Below are positions 623 through 35,480 of a DNA stretch of 35,550 nt, one piece after another; within the stretch, counting starts at the first letter, position 1; each line of letters opens with the position of its first letter. The position numbers and the translations under genes were made by a program. This stretch comes from Hormoscilla sp. SP12CHS1 (GTDB lineage Bacteria; Cyanobacteriota; Cyanobacteriia; Cyanobacteriales; Desertifilaceae), in the NCBI GenBank assembly GCA_014324065.1, contig JACOMV010000027.1, positions 1-35,550 of the forward strand, given 5' to 3'. Under the pieces are notes generated by a model. It was given only the letters and a program-made list of their open reading frames with translations, ran no database searches and was not told where the DNA came from.

Positions 623-2125
623 TCATCGGGGAAAAGTTGGCAAGTCAATTGCGGCCAGGGACTTAATCTTCTTGTGGGGACGCAGGGGATAAACTAGAGG
701 AGAGGGGGATTTTGTAGAGGAAAGCAGGGACAATGTCTCGGTCGTGTCCAGAGATACCACCCCATCGCGCTTTCCGCGCGATGGGGGTGTCCCTCTCGAA
801 TGACACGAGGCATCCACCGTGCCGGAAAAATCGGAACCCTCCTCTGAGGCTTGCTCTTCGCTTTGGTGGCTTTCTTGCTGCTCAAAGGTAGATGGGATGT
901 CTCCGGAGACATCCCAAACGTCGGAAAGTGAGTCCTCTGGAGTTTGCTCATTCCCTATGCTTGAAGAGTCATCTACTGCTGCTGCTACTGTCTCGTCAGT
1001 CAAGTCCTCACCAACTACCGTTCCGGAAAAATCAGTATACTCATCCTCTAATTGTTCCGAGACCGGAGCCATTACCGATAACTCATTCTCAGGGGAAGCG
1101 AGTTCTTCTGAGGCTGCGGACTCTGATACTCCAAGGGTTTCTCTGGGTTGTTCCTGCTGTGGGACGGGGGCGCGAACCAGGCTGCAAACCAGCCTGCGCG
1201 AAAAATCGACAGTAGAAGTATCGCCCGATATCGGGCAGTAGTCAGGCTCACCCCAAGCCTGCCCAGGTACTGCATCCGACTCTTCTGGAACACGCTCCGG
1301 GTCCCCTCCGCTGCGCGAAAAATCGGGATCTAATTCAAGTTCTGCATATTCAGATGCTGCTGACCAGGGTTGAATTGCTGGCGCTTTCGGGACAACTCCC
1401 TGTACGATTTTTCGCGCAGCGTTCGCTCTGGCATATGTTTCCTGTTGAGTGCTCCGACCCACCGTTCCGGAAAAATCAGCCGATTGTTCCGGACCCGTCA
1501 TCTCCAGGCATTTGTCCAGAGCATTTTTGAATTGCAGGGTATAGCGTTGCTGCCGGTACAGACGCGATCGCAAATCCCGGCAAATCGTTTCCGCTTGGGA
1601 AAGCTTAGTTGTCTGTTCCTCGTAGCGTTGCTGAGTGAGAGCACAATCTCGTTCCAACTGGGCCACTTGTTGTTGGTTAGTTTCCAACTGCCCGCGGAGG
1701 GTTTCTATGAGAATTTGTTGGCGAACCGTTCCGGAAGAATCGGAAGTTTGCTTGCCAAGTTTCTTTTCCTGCTGCACCTGAGAGTGATTTTTTTTCAAGC
1801 TATGCAGTTCTGCGGACTGCACCGTTCCGGAAAAATCGGAGAGTTTGGCCTCTTGAGCTTGACAATGCTCCTGATATAGCTGCAATTGCCTTTGAGCAAC
1901 TGCCAGTTCTGATTCTAACTGCATTACCCGATCGATCAAATCCGTGTTTGACTCTACCCGTACTTCTGCTGATATCTGGTCCGGGTCTGGAGCAAGCATG
2001 TCTTGTACTGTCGCCTCTACGGTTGACTCTAAGCTATTGGTGGCTCCGGGAATGTCATCTAATGGTCTATTTTCACCTAGTTCTTCTGTTGGCAGGTTAT
2101 TTGGAGTGTCAGCTGTGGTACTCAT
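623..2125 (-). CDS. Conserved cyanobacterial coiled-coil hypothetical protein with multiple short repeat insertions (DFSGTV motifs)
   Basis: 500-aa ORF. The coiled-coil segments and the C-terminal KKIKSLAAIDLPTFPR look like conserved sequence. DFSGTV or a one-residue variant occurs five times, DFSR twice, plus palindrome-encoded stretches. Confidence 0.75.
   Translation of the reverse strand: MSTTADTPNNLPTEELGENRPLDDIPGATNSLESTVEATVQDMLAPDPDQISAEVRVESNTDLIDRVMQLESELAVAQRQLQLYQEHCQAQEAKLSDFSGTVQSAELHSLKKNHSQVQQEKKLGKQTSDSSGTVRQQILIETLRGQLETNQQQVAQLERDCALTQQRYEEQTTKLSQAETICRDLRSRLYRQQRYTLQFKNALDKCLEMTGPEQSADFSGTVGRSTQQETYARANAARKIVQGVVPKAPAIQPWSAASEYAELELDPDFSRSGGDPERVPEESDAVPGQAWGEPDYCPISGDTSTVDFSRRLVCSLVRAPVPQQEQPRETLGVSESAASEELASPENELSVMAPVSEQLEDEYTDFSGTVVGEDLTDETVAAAVDDSSSIGNEQTPEDSLSDVWDVSGDIPSTFEQQESHQSEEQASEEGSDFSGTVDASCHSRGTPPSRGKRDGVVSLDTTETLSLLSSTKSPSPLVYPLRPHKKIKSLAAIDLPTFPR
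754..808. repeat. Palindromic element with TCGTGTC..GAGA outer arms inside a CDS
   Basis: TCGTGTCCAGAGATACCACCCCATCGCGC-TTTCC-GCGCGATGGGGGTGTCCCTCTCGAATGACACGA; outer arms resemble the intein palindrome. Confidence 0.75.
816..832. repeat. 17-bp short dispersed repeat ACCGTTCCGGAAAAATC (this copy ACCGTGCC...)
   Basis: Other copies: 1017-1033, 1461-1477, 1725-1741 (AAGAATC), 1821-1837, 4958-4971 (partial, in dnaE), 27979-27995 (reverse complement), 28147-28161 (reverse complement, partial). Confidence 0.92.
1291..1325. repeat. Dispersed element CACGCTCCGGGtCCCCTCCGCTGCGCGAAAAATC inside a CDS
   Basis: Related copies at 13638-13661, 14161-14194 (opposite flank arrangement), 28107-28131 and 29675-29700. 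Confidence 0.8.
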
Positions 2126-2207
2126 AATTTTTCGGACTGTTAAAGGATCTCAAGAATGGATTGCGGGGCTGCTGCCGACACCCCACATTAATACCAATAG
2201 TACGATT

Positions 2208-3275
2208 TTAATCTCTACTCTGCCCATCTGGGGCTAAAACTTGATGCAATAAATCTCGATGACGACTGGCCCGGTCTACAAGGGACTGAATTTGATTGGC
2301 ATCTAGGGGATCTCTCTGGCGGAAATGTGCTAACCAGGTTTTGCTAAGAAGATGAGGATCCTCTGGCATTTGGGCTAACTGCCATCCAGGTAGAGCCAGT
2401 TCTGCCATCAGTTGGTCTACCTTCGGATCGTAACTGAGCGCAAAGCATTGACATGGGGCTGCTGCTGCCATAATCATAGCATGCAGGCGCATGCCGATCG
2501 CCATCTGTACCCCCTGAAATACCCCTTTGAGAACTCTGGGATCTTCGAGCATGATAATTTGACTGACTCCCGATAGCTGGGGTCCGATGGCCTGGGCGAT
2601 CGGCATCTCGATGTCCGGTTGAAAGGGGAGGAGTAAGATGCTTGCATCAGTAGCTTGCTGAAATAGTACCAGAGCCCGGGTGAGATTGTCCAGTCGCTGT
2701 GGTGTCAGTTGGGGGTGTGGGCGCAATGTGACGGCGACTCTCGGTTCTGGTAAGTCCCGCAGTGCAGGGACTGGTTTTGAGTCTAAGGCCCAAACGGGGT
2801 CTGGTGCTAAATTATAGGGTATTTGCCATGCTTGCAGGACGGCGGCTGAGGCCCGATCGCGGACCGAGACTGCCGTACAACCAGCAAAGGTCCGCCGCGC
2901 GATCGCCCGAGTCAGGGGACGTTGTAGGGGGCCAATTCCCTGGGCCCAAGCAATTGTTTTCAAGCCCATCTGTTGTGCTAATCCCATCAAACCACTATAG
3001 TATAGAGGACTAAGGGCGCTAGTGGCATCTTGGATTAAACTACCGCCGCCCCAGATGAAAATCTCGCTCGCACGTAATGCTGACAGGACTTGGAACGCGG
3101 ATAGGCGATCGCGCGTTTCCACCCCGTAGCGAGTCTGGGTTTGGTGAGGATTTCCTGACAATACCAAAGGCGTCACATTTTCTGGTAACATTTGCAATAG
3201 AGTTGCCAGCAATGCCTCATCGCCGCCATTACCTTTACCATAGTAGCCGCACAATACCGCCCTAATTTTCTCCAT
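2208..3275 (-). CDS. csaB: Polysaccharide pyruvyl transferase, CsaB family
   Basis: 355 aa: VLCGYYGKGNGGDEALL...IFIWGGGSLIQDATS...AWAQGIGPL...GMRLHAMIMAA. Confidence 0.85.
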   Translation of the reverse strand: MEKIRAVLCGYYGKGNGGDEALLATLLQMLPENVTPLVLSGNPHQTQTRYGVETRDRLSAFQVLSALRASEIFIWGGGSLIQDATSALSPLYYSGLMGLAQQMGLKTIAWAQGIGPLQRPLTRAIARRTFAGCTAVSVRDRASAAVLQAWQIPYNLAPDPVWALDSKPVPALRDLPEPRVAVTLRPHPQLTPQRLDNLTRALVLFQQATDASILLLPFQPDIEMPIAQAIGPQLSGVSQIIMLEDPRVLKGVFQGVQMAIGMRLHAMIMAAAAPCQCFALSYDPKVDQLMAELALPGWQLAQMPEDPHLLSKTWLAHFRQRDPLDANQIQSLVDRASRHRDLLHQVLAPDGQSRD

Positions 3276-3316
3276 TTTATCTTAGCTTTCCATTCTCAAT
3301 TCACCAATAGTAATTT

Positions 3317-3619
3317 ATGCATACTCTATCAATTCCAACTTGGATCGTTCACATATCTAGCGTCATTGAGTGGATCGCCGCCATCTGGTATATCTGGACC
3401 TATGGCGAACTGACGCGCGATCGCACTTGGTACGGGTTATCATTAGCGATGCTACCAGCACTGATCGGCGCCATGTGTGCTTGCACCTGGCATTTTTTTG
3501 ATAACCCTGCATCTTTAGAATGGCTCGTTACTCTACAAGCAGCGATGACAGTTTTAGGTAACTGCACGGTCTGTGCTGCTGGTTGGTGGATCTGGCGATC
3601 TAGTCTCAGCGAACAGTGA
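3317..3619 (+). CDS. DUF2499 membrane protein
   Basis: 100 aa, MHTLSIPTWIVHISSVIEWIAAIWYIWTYGE...; typical of DUF2499 and adjacent to a DUF3593 gene. Confidence 0.8.
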   Translation: MHTLSIPTWIVHISSVIEWIAAIWYIWTYGELTRDRTWYGLSLAMLPALIGAMCACTWHFFDNPASLEWLVTLQAAMTVLGNCTVCAAGWWIWRSSLSEQ

Positions 3620-3673
3620 GCATTACCAGTGCCGGAGTTCATCAGCAATCAACAATTAACAATCAACAAATAG

Positions 3674-3964
3674 ATGATTTCTAAAGACACGCTGTTTGCG
3701 TTATCCCTGTTTCCCTACCTAGGATTTCTGTGGTTTATTACCCGATCGGGGAAAATGCCGCGTTTATCCCTGATAGGATTTTATATGACTCTAGTGTTTG
3801 TTGGGGTCACCATTCCAGCGGGGATTTACTCCCGGGTAGCCTATGGTGAATCTTTAGCAAATATAGATTGGCTGCATGGTGGCGCGGAGTTTTTTTTAAC
3901 CCTGTCAAATATTTTGATTGTCCTGGGTTTCTATCAAGCGGTGAGGGAGAAAAAGCAGGAATAA
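3674..3964 (+). CDS. DUF3593 membrane protein
   Basis: 96 aa, hydrophobic, LFALSLFPYLGFLWFITRSGKMPRLSLIGFYMTLVFVGVTIPAGIYS. Confidence 0.8.
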   Translation: MISKDTLFALSLFPYLGFLWFITRSGKMPRLSLIGFYMTLVFVGVTIPAGIYSRVAYGESLANIDWLHGGAEFFLTLSNILIVLGFYQAVREKKQE

Positions 3965-4095
3965 ACAGGACCAATCTTTATGGATGGCTAATTGTGAATT
4001 TTCGCTCGTTTATTAATATCCATAGCGCAGTTCAGATCGCGCTGCGCGCGCGTCGGGCCGCAATTATAAATTCGCAATTTTCCAGACAATTATTG

Positions 4096-32253: not shown

Positions 32254-32685
32254 TTAACGATAAAGATTATGGTCAGGGTCTAACCAGACGATGTAAAAAA
32301 CATTGTCTCTAAAAAATCCATGTACCCTGCCATGTTCGTTAGCGGATATTTGAAACTGATAGGCTGTGACCACCACCTGGTCTTCATTAGGAATGCCAAA
32401 GCCATTCGGTTCAGTAGTATCCTGCCAGTCTATTGGATGACATCGCAGACTTTTACTACGATTATTGACAATCTCTTGAACAGTCAACTTAGATAAGTCC
32501 CGCAGTCTTCTCAAGAGTACTTCTAGATATCTGACATCTCGCCCTCTAATTGAAAATTTTTCCTTATCATCCTGATAATACATGAAGGAAAAGCTTACTT
32601 TGGGTATTTCTACTCCTAAGCGCTTTATCTCAGATGAGGAACCTTGGCTGCGAACATTTATCTTTTTCGTTTTTTTAGGCGGCAC
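32254..32685 (-). CDS. Uncharacterised protein, candidate toxin of a Panacea-type toxin-antitoxin pair
   Basis: 143 aa; start overlaps the end of the upstream Panacea gene by 11 nt. C-terminus YQFQISANEHGRVHGFFRDNVFYIVWLDPDHNLY is compact and beta-rich. Toxin role inferred from context only. Confidence 0.6.
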   Translation of the reverse strand: MPPKKTKKINVRSQGSSSEIKRLGVEIPKVSFSFMYYQDDKEKFSIRGRDVRYLEVLLRRLRDLSKLTVQEIVNNRSKSLRCHPIDWQDTTEPNGFGIPNEDQVVVTAYQFQISANEHGRVHGFFRDNVFYIVWLDPDHNLYR

Positions 32686-33628
32686 GGTTTTTGTAGTATT
32701 CTCTCATTGATTCTTTAGAAATGATAGCATCAGAATGTTCGACGATTAGCAGCCCTCTCCTCGCCTTAAGCCAAGGGTCTTCCCGATGAACCATGATTTC
32801 CAGTTCAAAAGCATCACACGTGAAATACTCCTCTGTTATTTTAGCTAAAAAATCCTCTACTGCTTGCGGCAACTGTGGTTTTTTCATCTGCTTGAGAATG
32901 GGTTTCCATTGAAATTTTTTGTACTCCTCAAATAAGGTCGGAATAGTAGGGCCGGGTGCCCAAGCTTCAAAATCATCTTCAAACAGGGGAGTGTCGTGAA
33001 TAGCGAGATGCCAAGCTTGGGCATAATACACCAGCTTCTGTAGCTTGAGATTACTGATGAATGAACCAGTATCGTTGGCAACCCAAATGAAGTAATCAGC
33101 AATTTCGCTAGCAGTCGTTATCGTCGTTGCTTCGACGGCACGGCTCTTGTAAAACTCTCTCATTGATTCTTGAGAAATTATAGCATGAGAAGGTTCATCT
33201 CTAGGCAAACCTTTCCTGGCTTTAATCCAAGGATCTTCCCGACAAACCATGATTTCTATTTCAAAACCAGTGCCAAGGAAATATTCTCCTGTTATCTCCT
33301 CCAAAAAATCTTCTAATTTTGGAGAAAATTGTGGTTGTTTTACCTCCTTGATAATTGGTTTCCATTGAAATTTTTTGTACTCCTCAAATAAAGCCGGGAT
33401 AACAGGACCATGTACCCAAGCCTCGAAATCATCTTCAAACAGAGGACTGTCGTGAATCGCCAAATGCCAAGCTTGGGCATAATATACTAGCTTCTGTAGC
33501 TTGAGGTTACTGATGAATGAGCCAGTGTCGTTGGCTACCCAGATGAAGTAGTCGGCGATTTCGCCAGCAGTCGTTATTGTCTTCATCGAACAGGTGTCCG
33601 GCCTGTCTAAAGTTGCGTTGTCGCTCAT
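32675..33628 (-). CDS. Tandem-duplicated Panacea (DUF4065, GepA/SocA-like) domain protein, candidate antitoxin
   Basis: 317 aa. EIADYFIWVANDTGSFISNLKLQKLVYYAQAWHLAIHDxPLFEDDFEAW..GP.IP.LFEEYKKFQWKPI occurs twice; nucleotide offset between copies is 456 bp. Confidence 0.9.
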   Translation of the reverse strand: MSDNATLDRPDTCSMKTITTAGEIADYFIWVANDTGSFISNLKLQKLVYYAQAWHLAIHDSPLFEDDFEAWVHGPVIPALFEEYKKFQWKPIIKEVKQPQFSPKLEDFLEEITGEYFLGTGFEIEIMVCREDPWIKARKGLPRDEPSHAIISQESMREFYKSRAVEATTITTASEIADYFIWVANDTGSFISNLKLQKLVYYAQAWHLAIHDTPLFEDDFEAWAPGPTIPTLFEEYKKFQWKPILKQMKKPQLPQAVEDFLAKITEEYFTCDAFELEIMVHREDPWLKARRGLLIVEHSDAIISKESMREYYKNRAA

Positions 33629-33945: not shown

Positions 33946-34227
33946 TTAGTAGGAGTAAAATTTATCCTCAACCTGGGATAATTTATCCTCGATTTCAAAA
34001 TGGTTGGACTCGGACAACTTTTCAGCTATGGTCAGGAGTTCTCCAATCACCGCATAGACCTCTTGTGAATCAGAAAGAGTTGCCAGTTCCCAATCACCAT
34101 GATAAATCGCGGTTTCCTCAAGATATGCAAGTCTGTGGTCGAGTTTTATCCTAGCATCTAGGAGTATTTGACCCAGCCTTTTGGCATTGCGTTTTTGTGC
34201 TTTCGCTTGTTGACGTGTAAGTAACAT
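33946..34227 (-). CDS. Hypothetical protein
   Basis: 93-aa ORF MLLTRQQAKAQKRNAKRLGQILLDARIKLDHRLAYLEETA...; helical, no family recognised. Confidence 0.45.
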   Translation of the reverse strand: MLLTRQQAKAQKRNAKRLGQILLDARIKLDHRLAYLEETAIYHGDWELATLSDSQEVYAVIGELLTIAEKLSESNHFEIEDKLSQVEDKFYSY

Positions 34228-35075: not shown

Positions 35076-35480
35076 TTATGATTCTAGCCAGTCTTCTATA
35101 GTAATCCCCGTCACTCTCTGCATATCCAGCTCGTGCGATACTAGAATTATACCTGGCGCGATCGCCGTCGCCGCTATCAAGATATCTGCATCTTCTAACA
35201 GCCTCCCTTGACGTTTTAACTCTGCATGGATTTCTGATGCTTTTTCCAACACCTCTATTTCGTTCAACACCGGTAAAACTCTATACCTTCTGCACAAACC
35301 ATCGAATTCTAATAGCTTTCTTGTAGCATTAGTAGCCAGCAATCCTCTTTTTATCTCGTAGTATGTAATGCCACTGATGAACACTTCTTCCCTATCGACC
35401 TGTACTTCCTTGAGCTTTTGTTCGACCCTTTGATTTCTCTTCAAGATTGCTGTTACTATATTCGTATCCAACGGGAGCAT
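35076..35480 (-). CDS. vapC: PIN-domain toxin, VapC family
   Basis: 134 aa: LPLDTNIVTAILKRN...ISGITYYEIKRGL...GRLLEDADILIAATAIAPGIILVSHELDMQRVTGITIEDW. Confidence 0.9.
   Translation of the reverse strand: MLPLDTNIVTAILKRNQRVEQKLKEVQVDREEVFISGITYYEIKRGLLATNATRKLLEFDGLCRRYRVLPVLNEIEVLEKASEIHAELKRQGRLLEDADILIAATAIAPGIILVSHELDMQRVTGITIEDWLES

Follow-up and report, generated by a model that had tools for sequence, protein, structure and literature searches.

A tandem Panacea antitoxin candidate and its putative RelE/HigB-like toxin partner in the cyanobacterium Hormoscilla

Results

A double-Panacea gene overlaps a gene for a 143-aa protein

The locus comprises two overlapping genes of the marine cyanobacterium Hormoscilla sp. 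SP12CHS1. Both are encoded by the minus strand of a 35,550-nt stretch of DNA, referred to here as the window. Coordinates are collected in Table 1; a previous sequence-only reading had given positions without a strand. The upstream gene encodes a 317-aa protein. Pfam family PF13274 (SocA_Panacea) matched this protein in two stretches (4.2e-35, 121.5 bits, cut-off 25.7). Using a profile built in this analysis, two full-length Panacea domains, 152 codons apart, were delineated (aa 15–166 and 167–316). Hence, the earlier description of two successive Panacea domains is correct, as is that of the overlap with the downstream gene. We refer to the domains as copy 1 and copy 2. Copy 2 holds the usual antitoxin position, immediately in front of the toxin gene.

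Two further ORFs of the window were noted. A 93-aa ORF upstream of the pair had no significant match in Pfam or NCBIfam. At the window edge there is a candidate PIN-domain (VapC-like) toxin; any upstream antitoxin partner of this gene falls outside the window.

Table 1. Coordinates of the gene pair and of other features mentioned in the text
Feature	Record	Position	Strand	Remarks
Double-Panacea antitoxin candidate (PanA-PanA), 317 aa, ATG start	Window	32675-33628	-	Pfam PF13274 in two stretches; home-built profile
Panacea copy 1, ~aa 15-165	Window	33134..33586	-	Nearest relative: single PanA gene, contig C13 (86% aa identity)
Panacea copy 2, ~aa 167-317	Window	32678..33130	-	APGPTIP instead of VHGPVIP
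Toxin candidate, 143 aa, GTG start	Window	32254..32685	-	RelE/HigB-like fold predicted; Panacea-linked relatives
11-nt overlap, antitoxin stop / toxin start	Window	32675..32685	-	Translational coupling expected
93-aa ORF	Window	33946-34227	-	Upstream of the pair
PIN-domain (VapC-like) toxin candidate	Window	35076-35480	-	At window edge
Single Panacea gene and truncated toxin	Host genome, contig C13 (L014)	1524-2409
Panacea–toxin array	Host genome, contig C189 (L013)	1367-3970
Frameshift in copy 1	Hormoscilla sp. GM7CHS1pb (L018)	~3445-3510
319-aa Panacea ORF	G397 (L161)	1465-2424	-	Single Panacea domain
Phage Panacea locus	MH636380.1 (L134)	~88556-89200
Phage Panacea locus	OQ625504.1 (L135)	~88205-88700

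Relatives of the 143-aa protein follow Panacea genes

We gathered relatives of the 143-aa protein from species genomes, viral contigs and one plasmid. Their neighbourhoods were scanned with Panacea and toxin profiles. In 57 of 57 distinct full-length relatives, a Panacea gene was found directly upstream on the same strand. No full-length toxin lacking a Panacea gene was found among these 57. Spacing between the two genes ranged from -107 to +3 nt. Most pairs overlap, by 4 to 107 nt, and a few have a gap of 0–3 nt. At the long end, the overlaps are probably inflated by our choice of the start codon giving the longest ORF. The relatives derive from cyanobacteria, Sulfobacillus, Cohnella (Bacillota), an acidobacterium (Acidobacteriota), a Parabacteroides plasmid and IMG/VR viral contigs. 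On the plasmid, the pair is annotated as a SocA-domain antitoxin and a hypothetical protein. Closer to home, Hormoscilla sp. GUM202 has a version of the 143-aa protein with 99% identity, and Hormoscilla sp. GM7CHS1pb has one with 96%. The host genome itself has eight Panacea domains at five loci, four of which have a toxin relative behind Panacea (contigs C27, C189, C13 and C85).

We conclude that Panacea is almost certainly the partner of the 143-aa protein. The sequence-only reading had proposed that its gene is a toxin candidate beside a Panacea antitoxin, a proposal to be given up if homologues were widespread without Panacea. Because each of the 57 full-length homologues immediately follows a Panacea gene, the proposal stands. 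Very probably, then, the 143-aa protein is the toxin in a Panacea toxin–antitoxin (TA) pair.

The toxin candidate is related to families of unassigned function

No Pfam family was convincingly matched by the 143-aa protein. The NCBIfam profile NF046006 (MAG6450 family protein) aligned over positions 1–101 of 103, with a score of 33.6 bits against a curated cut-off of 40. The protein is thus related to the MAG6450 family but is below strict membership. It also matched the profile of phrog_8366 over most of its length. All 18 relatives tested (18/18) matched both profiles. Neither family has an assigned function; hence, the toxin family is already loosely captured, without a function, as MAG6450 or phrog_8366. 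We take "prophage protein ps3" to be an old name for DUF4065 proteins. The neighbour of MAG6450, MAG6440, is annotated as "putative prophage protein ps3" (PMC3179502).

Other sequence searches with the 143-aa protein yielded little. There was no match to ParE, RelE, HigB or YafQ sequence profiles in Pfam or NCBIfam, and a sequence search of the PDB returned nothing meaningful. PDB matches to beta-secretase and superoxide dismutase were judged to be due to chance. The same applies to a Pfam match to Relaxase_M, which was under the cut-off (E = 0.034). PADLOC reported a C-terminal match to NsnC spanning 34 residues (E = 0.0015). In the literature, the name NsnC was found in unrelated uses only.

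Structural models point to a RelE/HigB-like fold

Two AlphaFold2 models were prepared. Model 1 is the 143-aa protein itself (alignment of 23 members, pLDDT 79.5). Model 2 is a member from a viral contig, 42% identical to the 143-aa protein (25 rows, pLDDT 85.1). The two alignments share most rows, so the models are not fully independent. We compared both models with the PDB using Foldseek. For model 1, the matches were YafQ-type toxins of H. pylori and E. coli, RelE, HigB and YoeB (E = 0.07–0.6). For model 2, P. vulgaris HigB was the best match (E = 6.3e-3, probability 1.00), and HigB, RelE, YafQ or YoeB chains made up almost the whole top 30. Query-normalised TM-scores were mostly 0.30–0.43. 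Additional sequence, namely the N-terminal ~30 residues and the loops, partly accounts for these low values. A search of a viral-structure library gave weak matches only, one of which is annotated "cytotoxic translational repressor".

Neither model had a Foldseek match below E = 1e-3. For this reason, and because the alignments share most rows, we consider a RelE/HigB-like fold to be likely rather than proven. A new toxin fold, as suggested previously, is not the most probable reading; for both models, the best matches in the PDB are HigB, RelE, YafQ and YoeB.

We then turned to conserved positions in 47 non-redundant members. Asp136 is present in 46/47, His83 in 43/47, and His139 and Tyr142 in 41/47 each. 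Gln110 (40/47) and Arg120 (39/47) are also conserved. In the model, Asp136 is at the end of the last strand and His139 just after it, at the C-terminus of the protein. Briefly, HigB, YoeB and YafQ have a conserved histidine together with glutamate, histidine or tyrosine, and RelE uses basic residues instead (PMC7180214). In GraT/HigB, the active-site cleft surrounds the C-terminal residue His92 (PMC6393540); Asp136 and His139 are similarly placed at the C-terminus of the 143-aa protein. This set of conserved residues (H83, Q110, R120, D136, H139 and Y142) is suggestive of an mRNA interferase, and all but Q110 make up the candidate active site.

Decay of the gene pair usually begins with the toxin

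Purifying selection acts on the intact toxin genes (dN/dS ~0.16–0.20). Damaged loci are largely one-sided. An intact PanA gene, beside a toxin that is truncated, split or lost, was found at C13, for the second toxin of C189, at L024, L104, L155 and L156, and in two cyanophages. On contig C13 of the host genome, the toxin behind a single Panacea gene is shortened to 88 aa. A comparable Panacea gene, with toxin fragments, occurs on contig C22 of the congener G392. Both genes are broken, or toxin fragments are alone, at a few loci (L057, L060, L061 and L149). Decay of the toxin first is the pattern predicted for a toxin with its antitoxin, and is indirect evidence for such a pair. Overall, the pair is deeply conserved, both genes are under purifying selection and the toxin is usually the first to decay.

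Contig C189 of the host genome carries an array with three separate Panacea genes, in the order Panacea, toxin, Panacea, Panacea, broken toxin. The one intact and the one broken toxin belong to the same family as the 143-aa protein.

The two Panacea copies are diverged

The antitoxin gene contains a direct repeat, offset by 456 nt, with 77% nucleotide identity over 300 nt. Copy 1 and copy 2 were also aligned in register; across these 151 codons they are 81% identical in nucleotide sequence and 75% identical in protein sequence. Third positions account for 45 of the 88 nucleotide differences and dN/dS is ~0.19. This agrees with the offset, and the many silent differences, reported by the sequence-only reading. 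The same reading took the duplication to be fairly recent. This was not upheld. Overall dS between the copies is ~0.72, and the nearest relative of copy 1 is the single Panacea gene of contig C13 (86% aa identity, compared with 75% for copy 2). In a tree, copy 1 groups with the C13 gene (100/99) and copy 2 stands apart, the deeper order being unresolved. The identity of copy 2 to an Oscillatoria SIO1A7 gene (L024) is 71%. It is therefore doubtful that the copies are very young.

The N-terminal halves of the copies are nearly identical (dS 0.68, dN 0.046) and the C-terminal halves less so (dS 0.80, dN 0.235). Since dS is ~0.7 in both halves, near-identity of the N-terminal half is attributable to protein constraint, and to neither youth nor gene conversion. 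The host genome makes arrays, as at C189; hence, fusion following toxin loss is plausible. The most likely origin is either fusion of two diverged PanA genes, after loss of the intervening toxin, or an older in-frame duplication. Both routes are equally allowed by the data.

A change from HGPVIP to PGPTIP in copy 2 had also been highlighted. The change is present but we attach no special meaning to it because the site is variable in the family. The corresponding motif is APGPVIP in L024 and GGPVQP, SGPVQP or RGPVQP in the C189 paralogues of the host genome. Across relatives, the residue preceding G-P is H, P, G, S or R.

The double antitoxin is confined to Hormoscilla in the sets searched

The double-Panacea ORF is intact in the host genome, in Hormoscilla sp. 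GUM202 and in the congener G392 (98% identical). Copy 1 of Hormoscilla sp. GM7CHS1pb is interrupted by a frameshift, with no damage to copy 2 or the toxin. The frameshift may be real or an assembly or sequencing error. Judging by the identities and the frameshift, the genomes of GUM202 and GM7CHS1pb seem to correspond to the congeners G392 and G393. No other double-Panacea protein was found in 248 cyanobacterial genomes, 10 genomes of the family and 83 distinct PanA ORFs. Likewise, none was found in the best 25 phage and best 25 plasmid records among the matches listed, where Panacea matches in two pieces both lie within one single-domain gene. The full-length 317-aa protein, searched against viral contigs, gave no match. 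Hence, within the sets searched, the double antitoxin is restricted to the genus Hormoscilla.

A 319-aa Panacea ORF in genome G397 (L161) was considered as a further double protein and rejected; it has a single Panacea domain behind an unrelated N-terminal region. This region, of ~150 aa, is TPR-like by eye, and a toxin of the present family does not adjoin the gene.

The sequence-only reading had suggested that a double antitoxin could neutralise two toxins, which is a conjecture. Next to the gene that resembles copy 1, the toxin is cut to 88 aa at C13 and is fragmentary in a sister genome. This argues against two live toxin partners from that lineage.

Cyanophages carry Panacea genes with toxin remnants

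The Cylindrospermopsis phages CrV-01T and Cr-LKS4 each encode an intact Panacea gene. These genes are ~63–66% identical to several cyanobacterial relatives, for example that of Dolichospermum (L022). Between the two phages, dN/dS is 0.27. Behind the phage Panacea gene is a remnant of a MAG6450-type toxin, of ~66 residues in one phage and ~20 in the other. The remnants adjoin 36-nt repeats that are annotated as CRISPR arrays. A lone phage antitoxin can block a host TA system. Phages of Vibrio cholerae are reported to encode an antitoxin mimic that counters DarTG (PMC11481870). The cyanophage Panacea gene lacking an intact toxin is a candidate anti-TA gene.

Discussion

Interpretation and alternatives

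The interpretation that we favour, with a probability of roughly 0.68, is a type II TA operon of the PanAT kind. Here, a divergent mRNA endonuclease of the RelE/HigB superfold would be silenced by the Panacea protein. The arrangement, with the antitoxin gene first, the toxin gene second and an overlap between them, would be that of such an operon. The 143-aa toxin would cut mRNA, either as a ribosome-dependent or as a free endonuclease, and so halt translation. The Panacea protein would bind the toxin directly and silence it. Copy 2 would probably be the main partner, and copy 1 may supply half of a dimer within the same chain, or act as a sensor.

The main alternative to an mRNA interferase is a ParE-like activity. 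In this case the operon is still a PanAT, but the RelE-folded toxin poisons gyrase or another target, or has some other non-nuclease activity. The RelE/ParE superfold does serve both kinds of toxin (PMC10440598, PMC7180214), and ParDE chains are among the weaker Foldseek matches of model 2 (ranks 32 and 44). However, the top matches are the ribosome-dependent RNases HigB, YafQ, YoeB and RelE. Furthermore, the conserved His/Asp/His/Tyr set is expected of a nuclease, and the catalytic residues of RelE are absent from ParE toxins (PMC7180214). We consider a non-RNase toxin distinctly unlikely. That the conserved operon is no TA system at all is more improbable still; the 143-aa protein would then be a non-toxic Panacea partner, such as a regulator or a phage-sensing accessory. 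It is true that many conserved two-gene operons are not TAs and that predicted PanTs sometimes fail toxicity assays, eight candidates having been non-toxic in E. coli (Kurata et al. 2022, PMC8832971). Yet a non-toxic partner sits poorly with one-sided decay, in which the toxin breaks and the antitoxin stays, with the RelE/HigB-like predicted fold and with a mobile distribution that includes viral contigs and a plasmid.

The doubling of Panacea is a separate matter. It could be a neutral fusion, limited to one genus, with one copy drifting to loss; this is compatible with the TA interpretation and is a serious possibility, falling a little short of even odds. Doubling is confined to Hormoscilla in the sets searched, copy 1 is frameshifted in GM7CHS1pb beside an intact copy 2 and toxin, and the toxin next to the copy-1-like gene is damaged. 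Against neutrality, copy 1 is intact in the host genome and in the congener G392, where the whole protein is 98% identical. The dN/dS between copies is low (0.19), though divergence may partly predate fusion, and the frameshift could be a sequencing error. A bolder proposal is that the Panacea halves have different jobs, that MAG6450 toxins are neutralised only by Panacea and that the cyanophage gene is an anti-defence antitoxin. One half would then hold the toxin and the other would dimerise, sense a trigger or block a second toxin. The MAG6450 family would be an undescribed, deep and widespread branch of the RelE superfold. Taken jointly, these proposals are unlikely to hold.

Returning to the favoured PanAT operon, the analysis suggests a likely function and fold for a widespread, unnamed family, MAG6450/phrog_8366, whose members pair one-to-one with Panacea antitoxins. 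The double Panacea chain is a natural experiment, asking whether Panacea neutralises, dimerises or senses. The phage copies without a toxin suggest an anti-defence role against a TA system of a bloom-forming cyanobacterium.

Comparison with known systems

Panacea is a promiscuous type II antitoxin of many unrelated toxins and is usually encoded first (PMC8832971). For other Panacea pairs, complex formation and neutralisation have been demonstrated (PMC8832971, PMC10440598). A lone Panacea domain neutralises directly; where further domains are added, these neutralise and Panacea may sense (PMC10440598). The Hormoscilla pair resembles described PanAT systems (PMC8832971; Ernits et al. 2023, PMC10440598) in having a Panacea antitoxin, antitoxin-first order and overlap of two genes. 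A mobile, patchy spread, with the toxin sometimes encoded by phages, is also common to both. There are two differences. Compared by description, the 143-aa toxin family is outside the validated PanTs of Kurata Table 1, which are membrane, MazF-like, toxSAS, Fic/Doc and cyclase toxins (PMC8832971). MqsR-like and ParE domains are among the predicted Panacea partners (PMC8832971). The family may be one of Kurata's 88 unnamed clusters. The other difference is the presence of two Panacea domains in the Hormoscilla antitoxin; the main texts of PMC8832971 and PMC10440598 do not mention two, tandem or duplicated Panacea domains.

SocAB, a type VI TA system of Caulobacter, also has a Panacea domain, in SocA (NCBIfam NF047745). 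The 317-aa protein matches this profile but does not reach the SocA equivalog cut-off (128.9 versus 190 bits). SocB is not matched by the 143-aa protein, which instead matches the MAG6450 profile and gives a RelE-like model.

Like HigB, RelE, YafQ and YoeB, the toxin models have a strand–helix–helix arrangement followed by a C-terminal beta-sheet. The conserved His/Asp/His/Tyr set, whose Asp and second His are close to the C-terminal end, may be a further likeness. In contrast, the 143-aa protein has no detectable sequence-profile similarity to these toxins, ~30 extra residues at the N-terminus and longer loops. Its partner is Panacea, whereas those of HigB, RelE, YafQ and YoeB are HigA, RelB, DinJ and YefM. 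In summary, the Hormoscilla pair probably unites a known antitoxin domain, here doubled, with a partner from an uncharacterised family that is modelled as part of the RelE superfold.
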